A stretch of DNA of 53,283 nt, taken from positions 1 to 53,283 of the IMG/VR virus record IMGVR_UViG_3300021090_000027; one strand, 5' to 3'. Below the pieces are notes generated by a model. That model was not told the DNA's origin and did not search any database. It saw only the letters and a list, made by a program, of their open reading frames with translations. The position numbers were made by a program, and so were the translations under genes. This document shows, one piece after another, positions 1-53,283 of this stretch. Within the stretch, counting starts at the first letter, position 1, and every line of letters starts with the position of its first letter. The DNA comes from a virus.

Positions 1-152
1 GAAGCGAAAGCTACAGCTCACAATCCTATTCTGCCTGCTTTACGTCAAGCTCATGGGCGTGCTCGTGATGGTCAAATTCCGGTGGTGATCTGGCGACCTA
101 ATGGGTTCGGTCCAGCGAACGTCGCTGACTGGGTTGTTGCAACAAGAGTAAG
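1..152. repeat. Terminal direct repeat, left copy (circular overlap)
   Basis: Bases 1-152 match 53132-53283 except at one position: G at 33 and T at 53164. The difference is the third base of a leucine codon (CTG or CTT) in the nuclease gene that spans the junction. A repeat inside a gene that reads through it points to a circular or circularly permuted molecule rather than a functional terminal repeat. The silent mismatch suggests two strain variants in the sample or a sequencing error. Confidence 0.95.
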
Positions 153-2576: not shown

Positions 2577-3317
2577 ATGACGGTCTATATCCCAGTCGTC
2601 AGTGATGTTCAGGCCCCACTGCACGACCCAAAGGCAGTCTCGGCGGTCTGCACATTACTGGCTGACCGGGATTTAGACTCCGTATCCGTCGGAGACCTCT
2701 CAGACAGCACCCAAATAGGGCAATGGGTGAGAGGAAAATCTGGGGAGCATGATGGTAACCTCGGAAGGCATCGTGACATTGCCGTCCGATTAATGCTTGA
2801 TCTTCGGATTAAGCATATTTCGAGGAGTAACCATGACCAGAGGCTCGAGAGGTACATCCAAGACCACGCTGGTGGTCTTGCTGGATTGCCCGAATTGCGG
2901 ACAGAAGCGTTTCTCCGTCTCGACGAACACGGCGTCACCTACCATCGGAAGCCTTTTAAGCTCGCTCCCGGCTGGCTTCTCATGCATGGTGACGAAGGGT
3001 CACTCAGCCAGAATCCGGGTGTTACCGCACTCAATCTTGCGAAAAAGTCCTTTAAGTCGGTGGTCTGTGGTCACACCCACAGACTGGGCCTCACGCACGC
3101 GCATGGAACGTATTCGGGACTGGTTCAGTCCCACCTTTGGGGGCTTGAGGTAGGCCACTTAATGGACATGCGTCAAGCTACCTACCTGAAAGGTGGCATG
3201 GGGCATTGGCAACCCGGCATAGGGATGCTCATCGTTGACGGTAAAGATGTGATCCCTATGCCGTTGCCCTACATCAACGGGAAAATCTATTTTGATGGGA
3301 AGGTTTACCGTGGTTGA
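2577..3317 (+). CDS. Calcineurin-like metallophosphoesterase
   Basis: This 246-aa protein has the ordered metal-binding motifs of the family: SDVQ near residue 9 (Gln where His is typical), GD at 39-40, SNHD near residue 104, HGDE and GHTH further on. Such enzymes use two metal ions to hydrolyse phosphomono- or diesters; in phages they are variously linked to DNA end processing or nucleotide turnover. The substrate cannot be read from sequence. Its position directly after the DUF2829 gene leaves open cleavage of a nucleotide signal, but DNA metabolism is the more ordinary guess. It overlaps the sigma-like gene by 8 nt. Confidence 0.8.
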   Translation: MTVYIPVVSDVQAPLHDPKAVSAVCTLLADRDLDSVSVGDLSDSTQIGQWVRGKSGEHDGNLGRHRDIAVRLMLDLRIKHISRSNHDQRLERYIQDHAGGLAGLPELRTEAFLRLDEHGVTYHRKPFKLAPGWLLMHGDEGSLSQNPGVTALNLAKKSFKSVVCGHTHRLGLTHAHGTYSGLVQSHLWGLEVGHLMDMRQATYLKGGMGHWQPGIGMLIVDGKDVIPMPLPYINGKIYFDGKVYRG

Positions 3318-4008
3318 GCCGGTGCTCGTACCACGGTACGTAGTGCAGAACAAAGCTGAACTTGTCTGCCGCAAGTACCGGAGGTACATAGAATTCGAGG
3401 ATGTGGAACAAATCGGGGAGCTGTGGATGCTGGAGCATCCGGAGAAACTCACAGAGTACATGGAGATGGAAGAGCCTCGCCTCGCGGCGTGGCGACTCGG
3501 GCAGGACCTATGGCGGGCTATGGAACGGTACGCCCGGAAAGAACGAGCCCACGCTGTTGGTTACAAATCAGAAGATGAAGAGTTCTACACTGAGGGGATG
3601 ATCAAACTCATCCTTCCCAGGGTCCTCAATGGTGTTATCGAACCTGATGTGAGGGCACGTGAGGAGATTAAGGCACCGAAGGACCCAGCTGAGGGCGGGG
3701 ATTACCTAGCTAGCTACCTGGATGTGCAGCGTGCGTGGCGGTTGGCGTCGTTGGCGGCAATGGAAAGAGGTGTCCTGGAGTACACGTACATTCATGGTCT
3801 CTCACAGGAGGCCATAGGATCGGTTCTGGGGCTCTCGCAGCCCACCGTGTCACGAGCGTACGACAGGGGCATTCGGAAGCTTCAGAGGTACCTTGGAGGG
3901 GCTAAGCCGGGTGATTGCCCATACTCGTGTGAGTGCCATGAAGGGAAACTCAGGGTTCGCCCCGGTACGCGGGGCAACGACAGTGGGAAACATCAACTCA
4001 TAGGATGA
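3310..4008 (+). CDS. Sigma-70-like transcription factor
   Basis: The GTG at 3310 with GGAAGG six nt upstream is the preferred start (an ATG at 3295 has a poorer site), giving 232 aa. Residues 20-80 resemble a sigma region-2 segment (EFEDVEQIGELWML). Residues about 165-200 form a clear region-4 helix-turn-helix (LSQEAIGSVLGLSQPTVSRA) followed by a basic recognition end. The tail holds a Cys cluster (CPYSCEC). A natural role would be redirecting host RNA polymerase to phage promoters. It lies near the end of the early block. Confidence 0.75.
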   Translation: MVEPVLVPRYVVQNKAELVCRKYRRYIEFEDVEQIGELWMLEHPEKLTEYMEMEEPRLAAWRLGQDLWRAMERYARKERAHAVGYKSEDEEFYTEGMIKLILPRVLNGVIEPDVRAREEIKAPKDPAEGGDYLASYLDVQRAWRLASLAAMERGVLEYTYIHGLSQEAIGSVLGLSQPTVSRAYDRGIRKLQRYLGGAKPGDCPYSCECHEGKLRVRPGTRGNDSGKHQLIG

Positions 4009-6719: not shown

Positions 6720-7210
6720 CGCGCGGGCAGTGCTCTGATCAGATCACCAAGTTCCCGACGATCGATGATCAACCGGTCCGAGATGTAATGAAGAGGAACC
6801 CATGGTGGGTTAACCCCACCATGATGCCGGTACCGGGGAGGCAGCAACCAGTTACGTCGCTGTCTCGCCGACGGATTCACGGTGGGAGTCCGTTGGTTCA
6901 GTTTCCCCCAGTTCATGATCCGCCTAGGGAGGATCCCTGTCTCACCATCGTATTCTTTGAACAGCAAGTCCCCGGCTGTATCCTCGTCCGGGCCTCCTGG
7001 TGTCCATAACAAGCCAGCACTTCTGATATTTGGGTCGGGAATCACGCCCTCGCTGACTCCCAGCTCACAGAGGAGCCCCAGCGGGCAATAACGGAATACT
7101 CCGTCAATCCTCGCGGAGAGGAAACCCTTACCCAACGGGTAAAAATCATCCTCAACAATGTCAGCCCATGAATCACGGACAGCCTTGTCCATGGGCTCAT
7201 GTTTAATCAC
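6716..7210 (-). CDS. Hypothetical phage protein, 'YCPLGLLCEL' family (164 aa)
   Basis: It has the pattern of a conserved but uncharacterised phage/actinobacterial family: a Trp near the N-terminus, a GKGFL motif, then YCPLGLLCELGV, followed by variable loops and a C-terminal helix. It overlaps the whiB-like gene by 8 nt. Function unknown. Confidence 0.7.
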   Translation of the reverse strand: MIKHEPMDKAVRDSWADIVEDDFYPLGKGFLSARIDGVFRYCPLGLLCELGVSEGVIPDPNIRSAGLLWTPGGPDEDTAGDLLFKEYDGETGILPRRIMNWGKLNQRTPTVNPSARQRRNWLLPPRYRHHGGVNPPWVPLHYISDRLIIDRRELGDLIRALPAR

Positions 7211-7673
7211 GGTAGCCTCCTCGTATGTGCACTGGCATGTTTAGAGCCGCGCGGACCGCGTCCCCTTGACTGGTGGGATCAACCAGGACACCGGCGATAA
7301 CCCCTCTAGCGGCTGGCTCCTCGACATGAACATTTATGGTCCCTAAAAGGACCTGGCATTGTTCGAGTACCTCACAACTGCGGCACGCTTCAGCGGCCAC
7401 AGCAACCCGTTTAGCATAATGCGTATTAGCGGCACGCCTAATCAGACGCGGTCTCCCGCGTTCCGTGTTCCCTTCCTGATGAGTGCGTGTACCAAAAAGG
7501 TCAGGGTTTTCCATGCACGGGGTAACATATGGGATAGGTTTAAGATGTCGTACTCTGAAAATTTCAGCGTTCGCTTGAGTGAACGCTGAGTGTATCTCCC
7601 AGGAACCAGACCCACTAACGTAAGCTGTCCTTCCCGGGGCCGAGAGGACCAGACGGCCCGGAATCATTTTCAC
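7203..7673 (-). CDS. WhiB-like iron-sulfur transcription factor
   Basis: This 156-aa protein has four Cys in WhiB spacing: Cys53 (CMENPDLF), Cys97, Cys100 and Cys106 (CRSCEVLEQC). These bind a 4Fe-4S cluster in the family. A modified glycine turn follows (ARGVIAGV for the usual GVWGG), so the contact with the host principal sigma factor may differ. The GTG at 7673 has AAAGGG six nt upstream. Phage WhiB proteins (for example TM4 WhiBTM4) can repress host whiB genes and alter cell division or superinfection. A terminator separates it from the lsr2 group. Confidence 0.85.
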   Translation of the reverse strand: MKMIPGRLVLSAPGRTAYVSGSGSWEIHSAFTQANAEIFRVRHLKPIPYVTPCMENPDLFGTRTHQEGNTERGRPRLIRRAANTHYAKRVAVAAEACRSCEVLEQCQVLLGTINVHVEEPAARGVIAGVLVDPTSQGDAVRAALNMPVHIRGGYRD

Positions 7674-7760: not shown

Positions 7761-8255
7761 CTAACGCCCAGACAGGAGTTCGCGGTTCTTAGCGGACGCC
7801 AGCGGGTACTCTCTCCCATCTGGTACGAACTCACCGGAATCACGGGCATCCCGGTACATCTCAGCCAACACTTCGGGGATGTTCGCTGGGTGGAACTTCA
7901 CCCCTACGGTCTTGGCGAAGGGTCCGATCCCAGGGTAGACCACCCACCGACCGGACCGGTTAAACAACCCATACTGGTGGTCGGGGTTTTCCTGTGGTCC
8001 CTCCTCGAACCGTACTTGTGCCCGCTCTATAGCGGCCTGCCCTTTTGAGGGGACGGCCACGACGGGGGATTGTTCTTCCTCAACAGCATCAAACCACGGG
8101 TTCATGACAGCCCTTAATGCGTCGTAGTTCTCATCTCCTAAATCGAACTTCTGGGTTCGCCCGTCGAAAGCAAGCAGCACACGGTGGTGTGTTGCTTCCA
8201 CTAGTTCGCCCCTGGCGAACGCAATATCATCGACGGTACGTGAAACCTTAGCCAT
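7761..8255 (-). CDS. Lsr2-like protein B
   Basis: The start at 8255 has GGAGGA eight nt upstream; the longer frame to 8285 is unlikely. The first 60 residues follow the Lsr2 dimerisation domain (MAKVSRTVDDI, then a strand with FDGRTQKFDLG and a helix of the LRAVMNPWFD type). The C-terminal 70 residues do not show the clear RGR-type DNA-binding loop of Lsr2, so DNA binding is less certain than for its paralogue at 8573. It may form mixed dimers with that paralogue or with host Lsr2. It is fourth in a coupled group. Confidence 0.75.
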   Translation of the reverse strand: MAKVSRTVDDIAFARGELVEATHHRVLLAFDGRTQKFDLGDENYDALRAVMNPWFDAVEEEQSPVVAVPSKGQAAIERAQVRFEEGPQENPDHQYGLFNRSGRWVVYPGIGPFAKTVGVKFHPANIPEVLAEMYRDARDSGEFVPDGREYPLASAKNRELLSGR

Positions 8256-8403
8256 GGGGTGGGTCCTCCAGTGTGTAGTGGTCAAACAGTTGCTTCGCGA
8301 GCTGCCAAGCCTTAGCGACGGCCCACAACGCGACTATGACAACCGCAATGGGGGGAACCGTGAAAAGGAAAAACAGCATAACGATAATGGCGAATATTTC
8401 CAT
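8248..8403 (-). CDS. Small membrane protein (51 aa)
   Basis: The ATG at 8403 has GAGGAG upstream and overlaps the previous stop (TAATG). There is one long hydrophobic stretch of about 27 residues (from IFAIIVMLFFLF to VIVALWAVA), then a short cytoplasmic-looking tail. The end overlaps the start of lsr2-like B. Function unknown. Confidence 0.7.
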   Translation of the reverse strand: MEIFAIIVMLFFLFTVPPIAVVIVALWAVAKAWQLAKQLFDHYTLEDPPHG

Positions 8404-8576
8404 TATCCGCTCCTCATTTTTTTCCGAATGTAATAGGTTGCTTCCTCGTAGAGGAAGGCTAAAAACATGACTCCGAGAAGCAACCAGCGGAGGACGGTAC
8501 CGATGACAGCGATCACCAAAGGTATACCGAGAACGATAACAATAAAACCGACGAAGAACCCTAGAATGGGGTTCAT
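8403..8576 (-). CDS. Small membrane protein (57 aa)
   Basis: The start overlaps the stop of lsr2-like A by ATGA. There are two hydrophobic segments (LGFFVGFIVIVLGIPLVIAV and LLLGVMFLAFLY) and a basic tail (YYIRKKMRSG). It is coupled on both sides within the lsr2 group. Function unknown. Confidence 0.7.
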   Translation of the reverse strand: MNPILGFFVGFIVIVLGIPLVIAVIGTVLRWLLLGVMFLAFLYEEATYYIRKKMRSG

Positions 8577-9064
8577 GCTTTCGCACGGGTCCGCTGGCGT
8601 GGGGTACGGACCCGCTTCGGTGCTGGGGGTTCCTCGGGCAGGTGAATGATGACTGGTGGGCGCAAATCTTTCCCACCCTCGGCGACAATCCAATCCATAT
8701 CAGCCTCGGTCAGAGTGTCCTGCCTGGCATACATTTCCTGGATCCGGGATTTGATCCTCCCTGTGGGTGCCACAGTGAGGCCCACGAGGCGGGACCAATC
8801 CCTGATCTGCTCCAGCAGATCAGCATGCGCCTTCTTCTCTTCAGGAGTCATCTGAGATGACCCCTTCTTCGCGGGCCGGATCGCTGCGGACAGTGCCGTC
8901 CTCGATTTCTCAATAAACGGTATGAGAACAGCAGCGAAAGCAGCACGGTTGTTCTCCGACAGGTCAATCTCGTACGCTTTACCAGCGAAAGCGAACGACA
9001 CCGTTCCGGCCGCGTCAGTGCCGTCGATGTCGTCGATCAACTGAATCTGGCGTCTCTGTACCAT
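8573..9064 (-). CDS. Lsr2 family nucleoid-associated protein A
   Basis: This is a clear Lsr2 homologue of 163 aa. Residues 8-50 form the dimerisation domain (LIDDIDGTDAAGTVSFAF, AYEIDLSENN). Residues about 86-112 match the C-terminal DNA-binding domain (IRDWSRLVGLTVAPTGRI), where the RGR-like loop (here TGR) contacts the AT-rich minor groove. A further basic tail (KRVRTPRQRTRAKA) follows. Lsr2 silences AT-rich and foreign DNA; phage copies may bind phage DNA or compete with host Lsr2. It heads a four-gene coupled group. Confidence 0.9.
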   Translation of the reverse strand: MVQRRQIQLIDDIDGTDAAGTVSFAFAGKAYEIDLSENNRAAFAAVLIPFIEKSRTALSAAIRPAKKGSSQMTPEEKKAHADLLEQIRDWSRLVGLTVAPTGRIKSRIQEMYARQDTLTEADMDWIVAEGGKDLRPPVIIHLPEEPPAPKRVRTPRQRTRAKA

Positions 9065-14750: not shown

Positions 14751-14897
14751 CTAACTCTCGTCATCGTGAACACAGTCAAGGACAGTAATAAACCGCCCCT
14801 CACGCTCCGTTTCCTCATCCGAGCACTTGAGGCAATAAGCATTCACATTGCCCATTGTGTAACCATGTCCTCTAAATTCAGCATCAGGACTGATCAT
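14751..14897 (-). CDS. Small Cys-containing protein (48 aa)
   Basis: The ATG at 14897 has a strong site (AAGGGGAGAGATC). The product has CLKC and a later single Cys next to His (DCVHDD), so metal binding is possible. It ends 10 nt before the next start. Function unknown. Confidence 0.6.
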   Translation of the reverse strand: MISPDAEFRGHGYTMGNVNAYCLKCSDEETEREGRFITVLDCVHDDES

Positions 14898-14908
14898 GAT
14901 CTCTCCCC

Positions 14909-15085
14909 TTAATACTTGAGTTGCCTGGCCAGTGCCTCACGGATGTCAGACTCACTCACACCCATACTGCGGAGGATCTGCTCCGCAAGCATCACCGAAA
15001 GATCAATGTCTTTCGCCGTTCCCACTTCGCACAACTCGACAACATTGACTGTGATCAGTTTCTTCTGTTGCTTAGTGAGATACAT
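14909..15085 (-). CDS. First gene of the minus block: small helical protein (58 aa)
   Basis: The ATG at 15085 follows AAGGGGAGAGAGC. The protein is basic at its N-terminus (LTKQQKKLITVNVV) and ends with a helical segment (SESDIREALARQLKY). It is the promoter-proximal gene of the accessory block. Function unknown. Confidence 0.65.
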   Translation of the reverse strand: MYLTKQQKKLITVNVVELCEVGTAKDIDLSVMLAEQILRSMGVSESDIREALARQLKY

Positions 15086-15950
15086 GCTCTCTCCCCTTGA
15101 TTGACTAACAGTGGACTGCGCAACTGATCAGCATGAGGACTTACATGGTCGTCGCCTGAGTGCATCGTGATACTGCACGTCTCTGATTCAGCCTCACAGA
15201 CAGCCGTTAGGCTGTAGGGAGACTCTTGCCGGTAAGCGCGCCTTACGCCGCTTCACCTAAGCGCGTGTCGGGGGACTGGTCACCATGTGACTCTGCCTCT
15301 CACCGGTAAACCACCGTGCCCCGCTCAATGCGGGATGGCAGTCAACCGGGTGACTCTCGCGTCTTAGCCGGTCCATTCAGTTATGAAGCATCAAGTTCAG
15401 TGCTACGGCTTACGTAGCTTCGATCCAGCTAGCTACGGCGCATCGAACGGTGGAACACCCCTGATCCTACCCCCACCAGCAACCCTGATCATCGGGTAAA
15501 CACCCGATAACAAGTCATACAATCACCCCATTGACAACACAGCGGTAGCTGTGATTAGTCCACACACAGTCACCAACACAAGATCAACAACAACAGAAAG
15601 TAACCTAAATTCACTACAATGATTAGTACAATAATCGTCTCACCATGTGAGACTGCCAGCATCAGACAGCACGCGTCAGCGTCCCAGCACTGTGCTTGCC
15701 GACCACAACCAGGCAAGCACCATCCAAGGGCGCCACAAGCGCCAGAGACAAGTAGACAGGCAACCACCCAGTTGCCTGCAATGACCCATGATTTCAATCA
15801 CCCCAATAAGACATCAGAACAAACTAGAACACGTTCTAGTTTAAAGAAAGGATAATCGACCACGGTCGATGATTAGAACAAGCGTTCAATTCATTGCATG
15901 CTGGCGCGTTGGCGCGCATTGTGGATCATGGTGGCCTGGAAGGGCCACAT
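15086..15950. other. Hairpin-rich non-coding leader of the minus block
   Basis: No ORF with a credible start is seen on either strand. The region holds many short stem-loops, including 15200-15215, 15232-15246, 15279-15291, 15320-15334, 15402-15418, 15491-15508, 15538-15553, 15637-15653, 15692-15720, 15729-15743, 15757-15778, 15821-15842, 15855-15870 and 15931-15948. Stems are 5-10 bp with mostly short loops, and the sequences differ. The direction of transcription is unknown; the minus block needs a promoter somewhere here. A structured 5' leader, non-coding RNA or replication origin are all possible. Confidence 0.7.
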
Positions 15951-16267
15951 TAGGTGATTAGTAAGTATTACAGCGTCATCTATAATGCCGGGTCAGGGCT
16001 GTACTGTATACGCGGCATACGCGCGTATATGGTGTATTACTGTGTAGTATGTTTATGGTGTACACAGCTGTGACCAGCATGGTTGTGTTTCCCAACTGTC
16101 CTCGTGGTTTGGGTGATTCCTAAAGGATCATGAGGGTTTATTAGTTGTCCTACGCTAAGTGTCCGGTTTGACCCGGGGATGCCTTATCGCCCCCCCTCTC
16201 CCCCCTCTACAATCATCAAAAATTTATCCTCCCGGTTTATTTTCATGATCATCTATGCAGGTGGGGT
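15951..16267. other. Non-coding gap with composition shifts
   Basis: No gene is seen. The stretch holds an alternating TA/GC tract near 16005-16030, a C-rich run (about 16190-16205) and an AT-rich segment before 16260. Such composition change could mark an origin or divergent promoters, but nothing definite can be assigned. Confidence 0.4.
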
Positions 16268-16660
16268 GGAAAAACTTTGAGGTTTTTCCTTGTATCAGTG
16301 CAGGTCAGAGGCTGTGTGACGGAGGTCACACAGTGGTGGTTGAATATTTGGTGTTTTTTTGTGCAGCTATATATATGAGACCTTTTGCAAAAAGGTCGAT
16401 GAGAGAAGGCAACGCCTCAGGGCGTTGCCTGATCGTCCGCGATAGCGGACTCTGGCACACCCCAAGGTGTGCCCTTACTAGTGTGAGGGCCGATCCTGAC
16501 GGATCGGCTTAATTATGGTTAGGGGAGCACTGGTGGTGCTCCCAGATTCATTCACCGCTGCTAAGCGGTTCAGCGTCAGCCGAAGCGGAACCCGGATGGG
16601 TTCCGGATACTTATACGCGCGTAAGAAACTTTTGAGGCCGTGAGCCTCCCATGGAGGCTC
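16268..16660 (+). other. Hairpin array in the late operon leader
   Basis: Consecutive perfect hairpins: 16268-16289, 16312-16333, 16380-16396, 16407-16430 (10 bp, TCAG loop), 16435-16450 (GATA loop), 16454-16473 (CCAA loop), 16489-16508 (TGAC loop), 16523-16543, 16554-16569 (GCTA loop), 16587-16604 (GGAT loop) and 16642-16660 (CAT loop). The last contains the GGAGG ribosome binding site of the first late gene in its 3' arm; an alternative stem 16634-16648 would disrupt it. This suggests a regulated leader RNA. Confidence 0.75.
16348..16375 (+). promoter_or_regulatory. Possible late promoter
   Basis: A TTGGTG element at 16348-16353 and TATATA at 16370-16375 are separated by 16 nt and lie just before the densest part of the hairpin array. 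The -35 match is imperfect, so this could also be a promoter for a phage sigma-like factor, or not a promoter. Confidence 0.35.
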
Positions 16661-30346: not shown

Positions 30347-30419
30347 AGCGGGATAGCGCAGTGGTCAGCGCGACGGGCCCATAACCCGGAGGTCGCAGGT
30401 CCGAATCCTGCTCCCGCTA
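30347..30419 (+). tRNA. tRNA-Met (CAU)
   Basis: The cloverleaf has a 7-bp acceptor stem (30347-30353 with 30412-30418), D arm, anticodon loop CCCATAA reading CAU, and a 5-bp T arm with TCCGAAT. The anticodon stem has three G-C pairs (GGG/CCC) adjacent to the loop, a feature of initiator tRNAs, but the acceptor is fully paired. CAU could also be tRNA-Ile2 after lysidine modification. No CCA is encoded. Confidence 0.85.
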
Positions 30420-30420
30420 C

Positions 30421-30492
30421 GCCTTTATAGCTCAACTGGTAGAGCAACTATCTTGTAAATAGTAGCACGGGGTTCGAGTCCTCGTAAAGGCT
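30421..30492 (+). tRNA. tRNA-Thr (UGU)
   Basis: It starts one base after the tRNA-Met. The acceptor GCCTTTA pairs with TAAAGGC; the anticodon stem ACTAT/ATAGT encloses the loop CTTGTAA with anticodon TGT. The T loop has TTCGAGT. The discriminator is T and CCA is not encoded. Reads ACA codons. Confidence 0.85.
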
Positions 30493-30604
30493 CTTCCCTG
30501 ACGGATCAACCGGCCCCGTCAGGCGTATTGACCGGTACTGGGAGCAGCCACCGCAACCCCTAGCGGATGGTTCGGCCTGGGAAAAACTTATGGGAGATAA
30601 AGAA

Positions 30605-45956: not shown

Positions 45957-45998
45957 ACCCTCGCTCAACCTCCCCAGGTTGAGCGAGGGTCCTTTTTT
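45957..45998 (+). terminator. Strong terminator at end of late block
   Basis: A perfect 15-bp stem (45957-45971 with 45976-45990), CCCC loop, and a T run at 45993-45998. It ends the plus-strand late transcript and may also act on the convergent minus genes. Confidence 0.9.
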
Positions 45999-46037: not shown

Positions 46038-46373
46038 TTAAACGAAAACTGCAACCGGGTCAGGAGGCTCGGTGGTCTCCCCTGACCCGGTTTGATCGTG
46101 TGCCGACAATAGCATGTCCACCGTTCCCGGAGGAAGAGGATGAGTCATTTGCTTGATTGTGGGGGGAAGACGGAAGCCCGCTGAGTAAACCTGCCCGGCT
46201 GCAAGAGCACGGTAGTTGTCGCACGCCGGGGAGCATTCCGCATAAGCCATATCGTCAGGAAGAGGCACACCATCAGCTTTGTAGCAGTAGGCAGACACAT
46301 GTGGGATAACCTCCATCAGTCGTTGTCGGGTAACGAGCTCGATATGAGTGAGGAGATCAGGGTCGGAATTCAT
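46038..46373 (-). CDS. Hypothetical protein (111 aa)
   Basis: It begins in an ATGA overlap with the SLOG gene. A Cys/Tyr region (SAYCYKADGVPLPDDMAYAE, then CSPACDNY) precedes a Pro-rich acidic tail. It is co-transcribed with the SLOG gene and may work with it. No family recognised. Confidence 0.65.
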   Translation of the reverse strand: MNSDPDLLTHIELVTRQRLMEVIPHVSAYCYKADGVPLPDDMAYAECSPACDNYRALAAGQVYSAGFRLPPTIKQMTHPLPPGTVDMLLSAHDQTGSGETTEPPDPVAVFV

Positions 46374-46960
46374 GGGGCCTCAATTTCTGGTGGTAGGAAT
46401 GGTCGCAGGTGGGACGGGCGATCATCGGGAGGTTTAATGGGCCACATCGTGGGCACGATTTGAGGGGCGGCTCCGGTATATCGTTCTTTGTATCCGTTGG
46501 ATTTGATTCGGTGGGTGAGGATTCGTGCTGCATTGGCTCTGCCCATCATGTCTAGTGTGCCAGATGATCTAACACCGTTGTCAAACCAGGGGAACCCTAG
46601 GCATTCGTTGCCTCCTAGGTCAGCCATTAACTGGTTACGGCGGGGCCCTGCCGCTGGGCAGAAACCGTTATTCACTTGTTTATGAGTACAGTTTTTGTCG
46701 CATTCCCGTGCCCAGTCAGCTGGGTACGGTTCGCATGTGCCTCCCTGTTCTACCCAGAATTTGGCTGCGAAGTAGTCGAATCCGGCGATGATCCCGCCGT
46801 CACGGTTCCGCCTTGGTGGGCAGGCACCGTGTACCAGGATGTATTGGTCACTGTTGTTCTTGTTGACGTCTTTGAGGTAAGGCGAGAGGACTGCGTGAAT
46901 TGTCGTTGCTCTGATTGCCGGGTATTCCCGGCTGCCTGCGACGATAAGCCGAATACCCAT
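46370..46960 (-). CDS. SLOG-domain protein (DUF2493 / YspA-like)
   Basis: The ATG at 46960 is preferred over 46978. The N-terminus has the SLOG/YspA pattern RLIVAGSREYP, followed by a helix, LVHGACPP, an FDYFAAKFW segment and a PADWARECD stretch with several Cys. A GPRRNQLMADLGG motif follows, then LGFPW and GTLDMMGRANAA. SLOG folds bind nucleotide-derived ligands; some sense immune signals (the Thoeris effector ThsA carries one). Whether this protein sequesters or senses a host signal is not known. Confidence 0.75.
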   Translation of the reverse strand: MGIRLIVAGSREYPAIRATTIHAVLSPYLKDVNKNNSDQYILVHGACPPRRNRDGGIIAGFDYFAAKFWVEQGGTCEPYPADWARECDKNCTHKQVNNGFCPAAGPRRNQLMADLGGNECLGFPWFDNGVRSSGTLDMMGRANAARILTHRIKSNGYKERYTGAAPQIVPTMWPIKPPDDRPSHLRPFLPPEIEAP

Positions 46961-47257
46961 GGTCAACAACCTATACACAGGGAGTGAAGGGCTACAAGCC
47001 CTTCTAAGCCATCAGTTTGGGGGAGGTGACTCTCACCCCTATGGGTGTGGTGTTAGGCGCTTAGAACGTGACTCAGCCCCTCCCAGGACGGTTGCTGTGT
47101 GAGAGCCAACCGCGTCAGATGCCCTGGGAGGGGCTGAGTACTGTATGTCCAAGCGGTGACCTCCACGCGCTAATTTCAAGCGCGCGTATTCACCGACGCT
47201 GGACGAGTGGCGTCCCCACCTAGCACCCCGGGTGCTCGGATGGATCGAACCAGGAAG

Positions 47258-47295
47258 CAAACTACCACAGCCCCCGATGGGACGGGGGCTGTGGT
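47258..47295. repeat. Repeated hairpin unit 1
   Basis: Contains the shared unit CAAACTACCACAGCCC (47258-47273), forming a 12-bp stem (47264-47275 with 47284-47295) and 8-nt loop. Units 2 and 3 share the same 5' half. Confidence 0.85.
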
Positions 47296-47369
47296 GGAGG
47301 AACCACGACCGGCAGGGTCGCTATCAACTCTGGCCCGGACCTGTAAGGAGCAAGCAGCGGGCGTGGGCA

Positions 47370-47407
47370 CAAACTACCACAGCCCACGGGGCAATCCGTG
47401 GGCTGTG
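47370..47407. repeat. Repeated hairpin unit 2
   Basis: Shared unit at 47370-47385; stem 47378-47389 with 47396-47407 (12 bp), 6-nt loop. The stem differs from unit 1 by a compensated base pair, so the structure is conserved along with the sequence. Confidence 0.85.
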
Positions 47408-47439
47408 TCCTCCGTTGCTCGCTGCTAAGAAGGTGCCTG

Positions 47440-47479
47440 CAAACTACCACAGCCCCCAGCAGGGGTACCGGGGGCTGTG
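47440..47479. repeat. Repeated hairpin unit 3
   Basis: Shared unit at 47440-47455; stem 47448-47457 with 47470-47479 (10 bp), 12-nt loop. Spacing from unit 2 is 70 nt, from unit 1 to 2 it is 112 nt. Confidence 0.85.
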
Positions 47480-47539
47480 TACTCGCTCCAGTGGGGGTAG
47501 GTCACCACTAGGACCAACCGGAGCGAGGTAGAGGCAACG

Positions 47540-48760
47540 TTACACGACGTGCAGTCTCCGGACCTTCCTGGGGGCACCTGTGGCCGCTGGCGCGGTCATG
47601 TGCTCGGGCTTGCGCCTGAGCTCGATCATCCGTCTCCCTTCAGTGACCGTATTGAGGGCGACCCTGCTGACTTCGATACCAATGTAATCTTCTGTGACGT
47701 CTTGAGATTTATGACCTAGAAGGGCCATCGTCAATCGGATCGGACTGTCCGGGAGAACCTCGAACCCTCCTGCGGGTCCTGCCCGCATCACCAGTTCATC
47801 GTGGAAAGCGCGTGCCGCGCTGCGGCGTAGGCAGTGCATGGCGTTCTTAAAGGTGGGGAAACCCAGTTTATGAAGGGCAGTCTGGACGAATACCCCACAA
47901 TGCCCGATGGGTTTCGCGTAGTTCAGAGTCCGAACCATCACGAACTTCCCGTCCGGGCCTTGCACGACCCGCCCGTTGCCCTGACGGTAGGCGGGCATAA
48001 GCGGCCAGTCCATATCAATATGGAACACACCCTGACTCGCCAGGTTCTGCCGGTAGAATTTTGTCCACCGTTCGAGTTCCTCCTGGAACTCGATGACCTG
48101 GTTGATGTGATGCCGGATCATCGGCGCATTCCTTTGGGTGCTCTTCTCCCGGTTGATCCACAGACCGGGGATCCGCTTCCCGGTCTGGTTAACGGTCTCG
48201 TCCAAGTCAGACCATTTAGACAACCGGATCTCTCCGGTACGTTGTGCTGTGTACAGGCCGACAGCGATCAACCACCGGTGCAGCGGATCAGTCGCCGAGT
48301 CCAGTAGGTCAGGCCATTCCTCGGATGGAACCCGGAGAAGCCCGGAGCTTCCGGAGTTCACACGCTTGACCTTTAGCTCTGCGGCGGGGCTGACCTTGGT
48401 CAGCTTGAATTTCTTCCCCGTTTCAGGGTCTTCGACCCCGAACGTCCTGGTCCATGCGAAAAAAGATTTAATAACTCGAACGTCAGCGTTCAACGTGGAT
48501 GGTGACAATGGCACCATTTTCCCGTTCCGCATGATCCTGGCCTGGGATCGGTGGGTACGCCACGCGGTGACGTGGTGCAGGTCAACCGTGTTGATGTCGA
48601 TCTTGCCACCAGGCAAGCCCTTGGTGACGTCGGCACGGAACGAGTTGATCATCGACCGATCCTTGTCGAGTGTCCCGTCCTTCATGTCGTCGAAGTGCTC
48701 ACGGTGCTCTAGCCACTGGTCGATGGCGTCTGCGAGATCAACGTTCGGTTGCCTGGCCAT
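47540..48760 (-). CDS. int: Tyrosine integrase
   Basis: ATG 48760 with AGGGGAG upstream is chosen over 48832. The 406-aa protein has an N-terminal DNA-binding region (residues 5-130) and a catalytic domain with Arg174 (TAQRTGEIRLSKW), His309 and Arg312 (HCLRRSAARAF), His350 and Tyr359 (LGHKSQDVTEDYIG). These are the tyrosine recombinase active-site residues. It would integrate the phage at an attB site, so the phage is likely temperate. The stop codon overlaps an ACGTTAC motif that recurs in the region upstream of the gene. Confidence 0.9.
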   Translation of the reverse strand: MARQPNVDLADAIDQWLEHREHFDDMKDGTLDKDRSMINSFRADVTKGLPGGKIDINTVDLHHVTAWRTHRSQARIMRNGKMVPLSPSTLNADVRVIKSFFAWTRTFGVEDPETGKKFKLTKVSPAAELKVKRVNSGSSGLLRVPSEEWPDLLDSATDPLHRWLIAVGLYTAQRTGEIRLSKWSDLDETVNQTGKRIPGLWINREKSTQRNAPMIRHHINQVIEFQEELERWTKFYRQNLASQGVFHIDMDWPLMPAYRQGNGRVVQGPDGKFVMVRTLNYAKPIGHCGVFVQTALHKLGFPTFKNAMHCLRRSAARAFHDELVMRAGPAGGFEVLPDSPIRLTMALLGHKSQDVTEDYIGIEVSRVALNTVTEGRRMIELRRKPEHMTAPAATGAPRKVRRLHVV

Positions 48761-49000
48761 GATGATCAACTCCCCTGGTGTGGTGGTCTCCAGGTCGATC
48801 GTAACGTGACCGTTTAGCAATGACAACCCCACAGGCCAAACTGGCCTCTGACCAGTAACGTTACGACTTTCAGGTAATAAGTAAGTATCCCGTGATACTT
48901 ATGGGGCCATCCACCTGCGGTTTTGCACGGGTCGTACGTACCAGAAGTGTTCTTGGGTGAGGGTCTAGTCTCATCGTGCACACTGAGGTAACGTGGACTC
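48761..49000. promoter_or_regulatory. Divergent control region between int and regulator
   Basis: The 240-nt gap between the divergent genes holds three GTAACGT motifs (48801, 48855 within the palindrome GTAACGTTAC, and 48988), an 8-bp hairpin or operator at 48882-48901, and a 5-bp inverted repeat at 48833-48847. These are good candidates for repressor or integrase/excisionase sites. Confidence 0.6.
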
Positions 49001-49504
49001 ATGCCAAGTCCACGAAAGTCACCGGGCCGAGTGCGGGCCGAAGAGCTGCTGCTGATCAACCCTCGACCGCTTGCGGCGTTCGAGGTGCTGAAGGAGGAGG
49101 GTTTCACGACGACGTTGGGTCATGTGAGGCAGATCAAGCAGAAGATGGGGAACATTCCCACTGTCAACGGGAACCATCATGAGACCCTGCCCTGGGTCCT
49201 TGCCAGGCAGCATCAGAACCACTACCCGGCGTTGATGTTGAGGGCGCTGTCGCGCCGTCAGCAGGGTCTGCCGTTGGCGTCGGACCCGAGTAAGGCGGTG
49301 GTCATCGGTGGGAAACTGGATCGTTGGCTGGCGACCTTGGCCCGCCAGGACAAGGTCATTCACTACACCAAGGAAGATGGGTTCGTGCTTGTCCCTCGTC
49401 GGTACGCTCTGAATAAGTGGGATGAGAGGGAACCGGTTGATCCGCCTTGGATAAGATTGCCTCAACTGCCTGGTTTGGAGGAGGATTTTATCCTTTGTAA
49501 GTGA
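49001..49504 (+). CDS. Putative regulator divergent from integrase (167 aa)
   Basis: The N-terminal 50 residues are basic and look like a helix-turn-helix (FEVLKEEGFTTTLGHVRQIK). The middle is helical with many Arg/Gln, and the C-terminal part has W-rich sequence (LNKWDEREPVDPPWIRLP). Its divergent position from int, the operator-like motifs between, and the terminator after it fit a lysogeny regulator or repressor. No family recognised with certainty. Confidence 0.55.
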   Translation: MPSPRKSPGRVRAEELLLINPRPLAAFEVLKEEGFTTTLGHVRQIKQKMGNIPTVNGNHHETLPWVLARQHQNHYPALMLRALSRRQQGLPLASDPSKAVVIGGKLDRWLATLARQDKVIHYTKEDGFVLVPRRYALNKWDEREPVDPPWIRLPQLPGLEEDFILCK

Positions 49505-53022: not shown

Positions 53023-53283
53023 AACAGAATTCATCCTGGCCGAGTACTTGCAAGCGTACTGGCCTGAAGCTCACGCGACAGGTAAGAGCGCACCTGGTGA
53101 TGACATTGTGGGTACTGGAGTGTTGGCTATCGAAGCGAAAGCTACAGCTCACAATCCTATTCTTCCTGCTTTACGTCAAGCTCATGGGCGTGCTCGTGAT
53201 GGTCAAATTCCGGTGGTGATCTGGCGACCTAATGGGTTCGGTCCAGCGAACGTCGCTGACTGGGTTGTTGCAACAAGAGTAAG
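52982..53283 (+). CDS. Holliday-junction-resolvase-like nuclease, N-terminal part
   Basis: ATG 52982 follows GAGGAGG with nine nt spacing. The gene continues at base 1 across the circle. Residues include FILAEYLQAYWP, GKSAPGDDIVG (acidic) and VLAIEAKAT (E-x-K), together a small PD-(D/E)XK-type core like phage junction resolvases. It would resolve branched DNA before packaging. The full protein is about 118 aa after collapsing the repeat. Confidence 0.8.
   Translation, partial: MVVPRRSRINRGRETEFILAEYLQAYWPEAHATGKSAPGDDIVGTGVLAIEAKATAHNPILPALRQAHGRARDGQIPVVIWRPNGFGPANVADWVVATRV
53132..53283. repeat. Terminal direct repeat, right copy (circular overlap)
   Basis: Matches 1-152 except T at 53164 versus G at 33. 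The codon is leucine in both. See the left-copy entry. Confidence 0.95.

Follow-up and report, generated by a model that had tools for sequence, protein, structure and literature searches.

The attachment site of a phage, attP, usually lies beside the integrase gene. In sib-type control as known from phage lambda, RNase III processing of a hairpin lowers int expression, an effect that is lost on integration. The immunity RNA of P4 is a short processed RNA with complementary partners, made by a satellite phage that carries no virion genes of its own. In an attP of the lambda/L5 type, arm-type sites flank a core that is identical to the attB of the host, and arm-less systems of the Brujita kind are marked by an immunity that depends on integration.

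The int gene of lambda is retroregulated by the downstream element sib (PMC5300877), and clusters of hairpins that lack a strong U tract have been described as termination units (PMC8355165). The integrase of phage Brujita is described as having no N-terminal domain, arm-type sites or directionality factor, and the repressor gene of Brujita-type systems contains attP (PMC7194413). Here, a stretch of viral DNA of 53,283 nt (an IMG/VR record at its full length, hereafter the window) was analysed, in which a cluster of repeated hairpins adjoins the gene of an apparently arm-less tyrosine integrase.

Phage genome and gene neighbourhood

The first and last 152 nt of the window (1-152 and 53132-53283) form a direct repeat with 99% identity, so the record probably represents an entire phage genome, either circular or terminally redundant. 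Its terminase shares 42% identity with those of Streptomyces phages of the Beephvirinae, and many genes match these phages and Caudovirales sp. ct2KA10. The phage is a temperate, actinobacteria-type virus that is distantly Beephvirinae-like. Its nearest IMG/VR contig, G001, has a terminase with 66% identity; an integrase match was looked for in this contig and none was found.

Several other features of the genome were recorded. Genes for tRNA-Met (CAT) and tRNA-Thr (TGT) are adjacent at 30347-30493, and tRNA-dependent lysogeny has been described elsewhere (PMC10865867). This one phage encodes a sigma-factor-like protein (3292-4008), a WhiB-like protein (7203-7673) and two Lsr2-like proteins (7761-8285 and 8573-9064). 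Its DNA primase (268-1129) is split between an ORF at 268-672 and a second one, overlapping the first, at 485-1129; the primase of Streptomyces phage Dennebes (31377-30504) is divided in the same way. A near-perfect palindrome, AAACTAGAACACGTTCTAGTTT, is located at 15821-15842 within a region (14842-16478) that contains no ORF of at least 100 aa; it resembles an operator, and the region a control region.

Leftward from the integrase gene, the order is int, the hairpin array, a YAcAr/SLOG-family gene, a 111-aa ORF and a terminator-like hairpin (Table 1). The SLOG gene product itself falls below the Pfam cut-off, and its 41% identical relative in G001 lies above it. The array had previously been placed beside an integrase gene, and this is borne out by the integrase ORF, which ends directly to its right.

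Table 1. Features of the integrase locus, from left to right (positions of the window)
Feature	Position	Strand	Description
Strong bidirectional terminator-like hairpin	45957-45990		Closes off both the leftward gene group and the late genes read rightward
YAcAr/SLOG-family gene	46370-46978	-	Next gene leftward past the array; probable ATG start 46960
Separate 17-bp stem	47071-47139 (arms 47071-47087/47123-47139)		35-nt loop; does not contain the 16-nt unit
Imperfect nested dyad	47147-47203		AT-rich centre (ACGCGC TAATTTCAA GCGCGCGT); z -3.9
Hairpin unit 1	47258-47295		Foot CAAACTAC and 13-bp perfect stem (47264-47295), 6-nt loop
Hairpin unit 2	47370-47407		Foot and 12-bp perfect stem (47378-47407), 6-nt loop; has the single compensated pair (A-T for C-G)
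Hairpin unit 3	47440-47479		Foot and 10-bp perfect stem (47448-47479), 12-nt loop
8-bp stem CTCGCTCC/GGAGCGAG with inner pairing	47482-47527		Right of unit 3 and left of the integrase end; z -3.4
Tyrosine integrase gene, predicted to lack the arm-binding domain	47540-48760	-	406 aa; ATG 48760, GGGGAG upstream
Promoter-like site upstream of int	48798-48826	-	TTGTCA, 17 nt, TACGAT; consensus match only
Repressor-like gene	49001-49504		Next to int and divergent from it

A hairpin unit in three copies

The 16-mer CAAACTACCACAGCCC occurs on the + strand at 47258, 47370 and 47440, exactly where an earlier note on this DNA had located it. It is the sole 16-mer with three occurrences in the genome, and no further copy with up to 3 mismatches was found in the whole genome. 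Each copy forms the 5' arm of a stem, as the earlier note had proposed, although the stems measure 10-13 bp rather than the 10-12 bp given there; the 17-bp long-range stem that it reported upstream is exact. Within a 555-nt region, three stems of at least 10 bp were observed, compared with 0.007 per dinucleotide shuffle and a maximum of 1, and folding of the whole region against shuffles yielded z scores of -8.2 (+ strand) and -8.9 (- strand). The hairpin array is real and strongly non-random.

Three parts of the unit are kept in all copies, namely the foot CAAACTAC (8 nt, identical throughout) and the two half-arms of the lower stem, CACAGCCC and the complementary GGGCTGTG. Conservation of the stem by compensated pairs had been claimed, and this holds for one pair of the shared stem, directly after CACAGCCC, which reads C-G, A-T and C-G in units 1, 2 and 3; the remaining differences between the arms are confined to the apical stem and the loop. 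Loops, linkers and flanks are unrelated between copies (6-12 of 30 flank positions identical), which argues against a recent large duplication. The half-arms CACAGCCC and GGGCTGTG are separated by 12, 14 and 16 nt, giving outer lengths of 28, 30 and 32 nt, with pairing kept in every case, and the copy-to-copy distances correspond to 10.67, 6.67 and 17.33 helical turns, that is, there is no phasing.

Such a sliding spacing would not readily be tolerated by a duplex-bound dimer or by a recombinase with a fixed spacer of 6-8 bp. A folded single strand would tolerate it, which suggests that folding suits the data better than dimer binding to duplex. Since the spacing varies while pairing is kept, and since helical phasing is absent, we infer a constraint at the level of the strand; from its three copies, the array looks selected as a folded strand. 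Other classes of repeat were considered and rejected. The copies fall in three different frames of the overlapping ORFs with spacings of 112 and 70, which are not multiples of 3, so a coding repeat is excluded and the constraint does not act on protein; a PHROG match to the small ORFs over the array was sought and none was found. As a duplex dyad for a dimer or a recombinase core, units 1 and 2 resemble 13-6-13 and 12-6-12 arrangements, but the half-arm register is not fixed. A CRISPR-like array is not indicated either, given the irregular spacing and unrelated linkers.

Searches for related arrays

In IMG/VR, from which records very close to the window may be missing, searches for the unit as a hairpin, with the exact 16-mer and with relaxed hairpin patterns, returned unrelated single matches only. 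In a collection of genomes from 84,980 species, the exact 16-mer gave 30 single matches, none of which (0/30) was accompanied by a repeat or a hairpin, a number no greater than the chance expectation in 257 billion bases. No such array was found in G001, including the locus of its SLOG-gene relative, and nine loci with a distantly related integrase (26-30% identity) show at most a single long hairpin beyond int, and no such repeats. A tblastn search of the integrase against phages and plasmids gave nothing solid, and no description of such an array was found in the literature. Because the unit was absent elsewhere in these searches, the array is assigned to this phage or to others closely related to it; as far as the collections searched indicate, it belongs to no known family.

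A different structure was observed in the relatives G021 and G025, where int is followed by a stem of about 18 bp whose loop measures 41 nt (locus L159, about 2052-2128; the same element at L157). A single base change in G025 disrupts one of the pairs on one strand, whereas the strand opposite int retains G-U pairing at that place, a hint of an RNA made from the lysis-gene side.

An integrase predicted to lack the arm-binding domain

The integrase matches the PHROG integrase family (E 4e-23), and R174, K206, H309, R312, H350 and Y359 are invariant in an alignment of four integrases (that of the phage and three relatives with 29-31% identity). With the catalytic R, K, H-x-x-R, H and Y all present, the protein is, by its sequence, a genuine tyrosine recombinase. 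An alternative start at GTG 48832 would give 430 aa, 24 residues more. For the predicted structure, whose pLDDT is 58-80 in the N-terminal part and poor elsewhere, the alignment with lambda Int starts at residue 4, paired with lambda residue 69, and extends over 91 residues with an rmsd of 2.2 and a Z of 9.4. Foldseek with the whole model gave weak matches, none with E <0.001; the structure of the Brujita integrase (PDB 5vfz) was among the structural matches. The protein is thus modelled to begin directly at the helical core-binding domain, and three related integrases likewise begin at this domain or nearly so. Related arm-less integrases in the IMG/VR contigs G021, G024 and G025 adjoin a divergent repressor homologue, as is the case here.

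With no arm-binding domain predicted, arm sites for the integrase are not expected. The proposal of the earlier note that the repeats are such sites is therefore not supported: there is no space in the protein for the domain, the copies are unphased and the half-arm spacing is variable. The locus resembles attP of the lambda/L5 type in having direct repeats beside a tyrosine integrase gene. However, the N-terminal arm-binding domain that goes with arm sites in those phages is absent from the model, and the repeats are hairpins, unphased and widely spaced. The likeness to Brujita-type integrases is in the start at the core-binding domain; the two differ in that attP lies within the repressor gene in those systems, whereas this phage has its repressor-like gene in divergent orientation to int.

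A candidate RNA element downstream of int

Our leading reading, held tentatively and with somewhat less than even confidence, is that the array is a cluster of RNA hairpins with which the leftward int transcript ends, and that these hairpins serve as weak terminators in tandem or as a stability element, insulating the SLOG gene. Transcription from the int side would produce three stable hairpins in a row, with the tail GUAGUUUG behind each of them. Together, these hairpins might work as weak factor-independent terminators or as 3'-end stability elements that end or protect int mRNA, and the downstream SLOG gene would be insulated from int transcription, in a role comparable to that of lambda sib. 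That int transcription passes through the hairpins and that they affect the resulting RNA is what we infer from the arrangement described below.

This reading is favoured because the array comes immediately after the 3' end of int when the gene is followed in its own direction, with a promoter-like site upstream of int, because a scan revealed no promoter-like site inside the array, and because the hairpins are stable on the int strand (-24.6 to -28.7 kcal/mol) within a strongly folding region. It is further favoured by the tail, which is identical in the three copies and follows the stem on the int strand only, by the terminator-like scan, which units 1 and 2 pass on the int strand and no unit passes on the other strand, and by the variable half-arm spacing with pairing kept and no phasing. 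As in intrinsic terminators, a G+C-rich hairpin is found downstream of a gene. Clustered-hairpin terminators (PMC8355165) are similar in that several stable hairpins occupy an inter-operon region with no strong U tract; the hairpins of those clusters are less than 15 nt apart, whereas the copies here are 32-74 nt apart, and the first hairpin near the int stop here, unit 3, is at about 60 nt. Lambda sib is likewise a hairpin-forming element downstream of int that is expected to act on int mRNA, but it contains one RNase III site and the present phage has three short repeated hairpins.

Several observations point the other way. An intrinsic terminator has a U-rich tail right behind its stem; here, the tail GTAGTTTG after each hairpin on the int strand scores 1.0-1.1, around the 75th percentile of the genome, below the 2.2-2.8 of the phage's likely terminators. 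Termination, including that by clusters of the kind just described, does not require the 8-nt foot and the lower stem to be the same in every copy; termination alone thus leaves the exact foot unexplained, which gives room for a protein or RNA partner. Folding does not clearly favour the int strand: G-U pairs add to the + strand in units 1 and 2 and to the - strand in unit 3, which on the - strand reaches 14 bp including two G-U pairs, with a 4-nt loop. In addition, the array is absent from the relatives examined, which include distant integrase relatives with 26-31% identity.

Alternative explanations

Less probable, though the strongest of the rivals, is a separate structured regulatory RNA, made from either strand, whose repeated hairpin binds a phage or host protein or RNA in an immunity or riboregulatory role. 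The folding of the 555-nt region, far better than that of shuffles on both strands, would fit such an RNA, as would the apparent strand-level constraint, and a foot and lower stem that stay the same while the loops vary freely look like a recognition element; against it are the lack of a promoter-like site in the region, the repressor-family gene already next to int and the lack of an Rfam family. A search of Rfam 15 at gathering score found only two tRNAs elsewhere in the genome, and matches in the array region were weak and far below gathering. A comparison with the immunity RNA of P4 had been suggested, and the likeness would consist in a structured phage RNA with repeated elements; no specific resemblance emerged, as this phage encodes its own terminase, portal and capsid homologues together with the repressor-family gene, and the array gave no Rfam match at gathering score.

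Sites in attP for an excisionase or a host factor, with the hairpin shape secondary, are unlikely. The array adjoins int in the usual place of attP, its direct repeats share one orientation, and an AT-rich dyad lies nearby (47147-47203), which as a candidate att core is only a guess. This main DNA-level alternative is weakened because the integrase appears to have no arm-binding domain; the absence of phasing, the varying half-arm spacing and the nine loci of distant integrases that carry no such repeats also count against it, and in comparison with a small tRNA set no tRNA-like att core beyond chance was found. A tRNA-like match at 47242-47253 (CTGGTTCGATCC, - strand), one base longer than shuffles reach, was rejected as a tRNA-derived att core: the motif is a common T-loop motif and the T-stem is unpaired.

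It is more doubtful still that the hairpins act in single-stranded DNA, as signals for primase or replication initiation or as sites nicked by an enzyme of the HUH type. A conserved foot beside a stem with a free loop would suit this role, and a primase and a DnaB-like helicase are among the phage's proteins, but the array adjoins int rather than replication genes, no relative has it, and no HUH, transposase or relaxase match was found among the proteins scanned, which represent part of the ORFs.

Quite improbable are three tandem leftward promoters, in which TGGTAGTTT (- strand) would be an extended -10 element and the dyad an operator: the sequence fits TGnTAnnnT at all three units and the phage encodes a sigma-like protein, but there is no common -35, the absence of further genome copies with up to 3 mismatches speaks against a regulon, and the conserved 5' stem arm would be left unexplained. 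A host-derived repetitive palindrome of the REP/BIME kind that landed in the phage, compatible with a small hairpin bearing a conserved foot and with the G+C content of the region (61% versus about 53% for the phage), is highly improbable, since such elements occur in many copies in a bacterial genome and the 30 matches of the exact 16-mer in the genome collection are single and without hairpins, although the true host may be absent from that collection.

Implications for arm-less integrases

For tyrosine integrases of the arm-less kind, it is a question how integration and excision can be controlled when arm sites are lacking. If read as an RNA element that closes the int transcript, the strongly constrained hairpin array directly downstream of this apparently arm-less integrase gene provides a testable candidate for control via integrase mRNA. 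There is also a slim chance that the three-copy hairpin is specific to the phage and has a dedicated factor that recognises it, as RNA or as single-stranded DNA, and thereby links the expression or directionality of the integrase to the genome's state. If true, a hairpin with its own dedicated factor would be a new way of giving direction to a simple arm-less recombinase.
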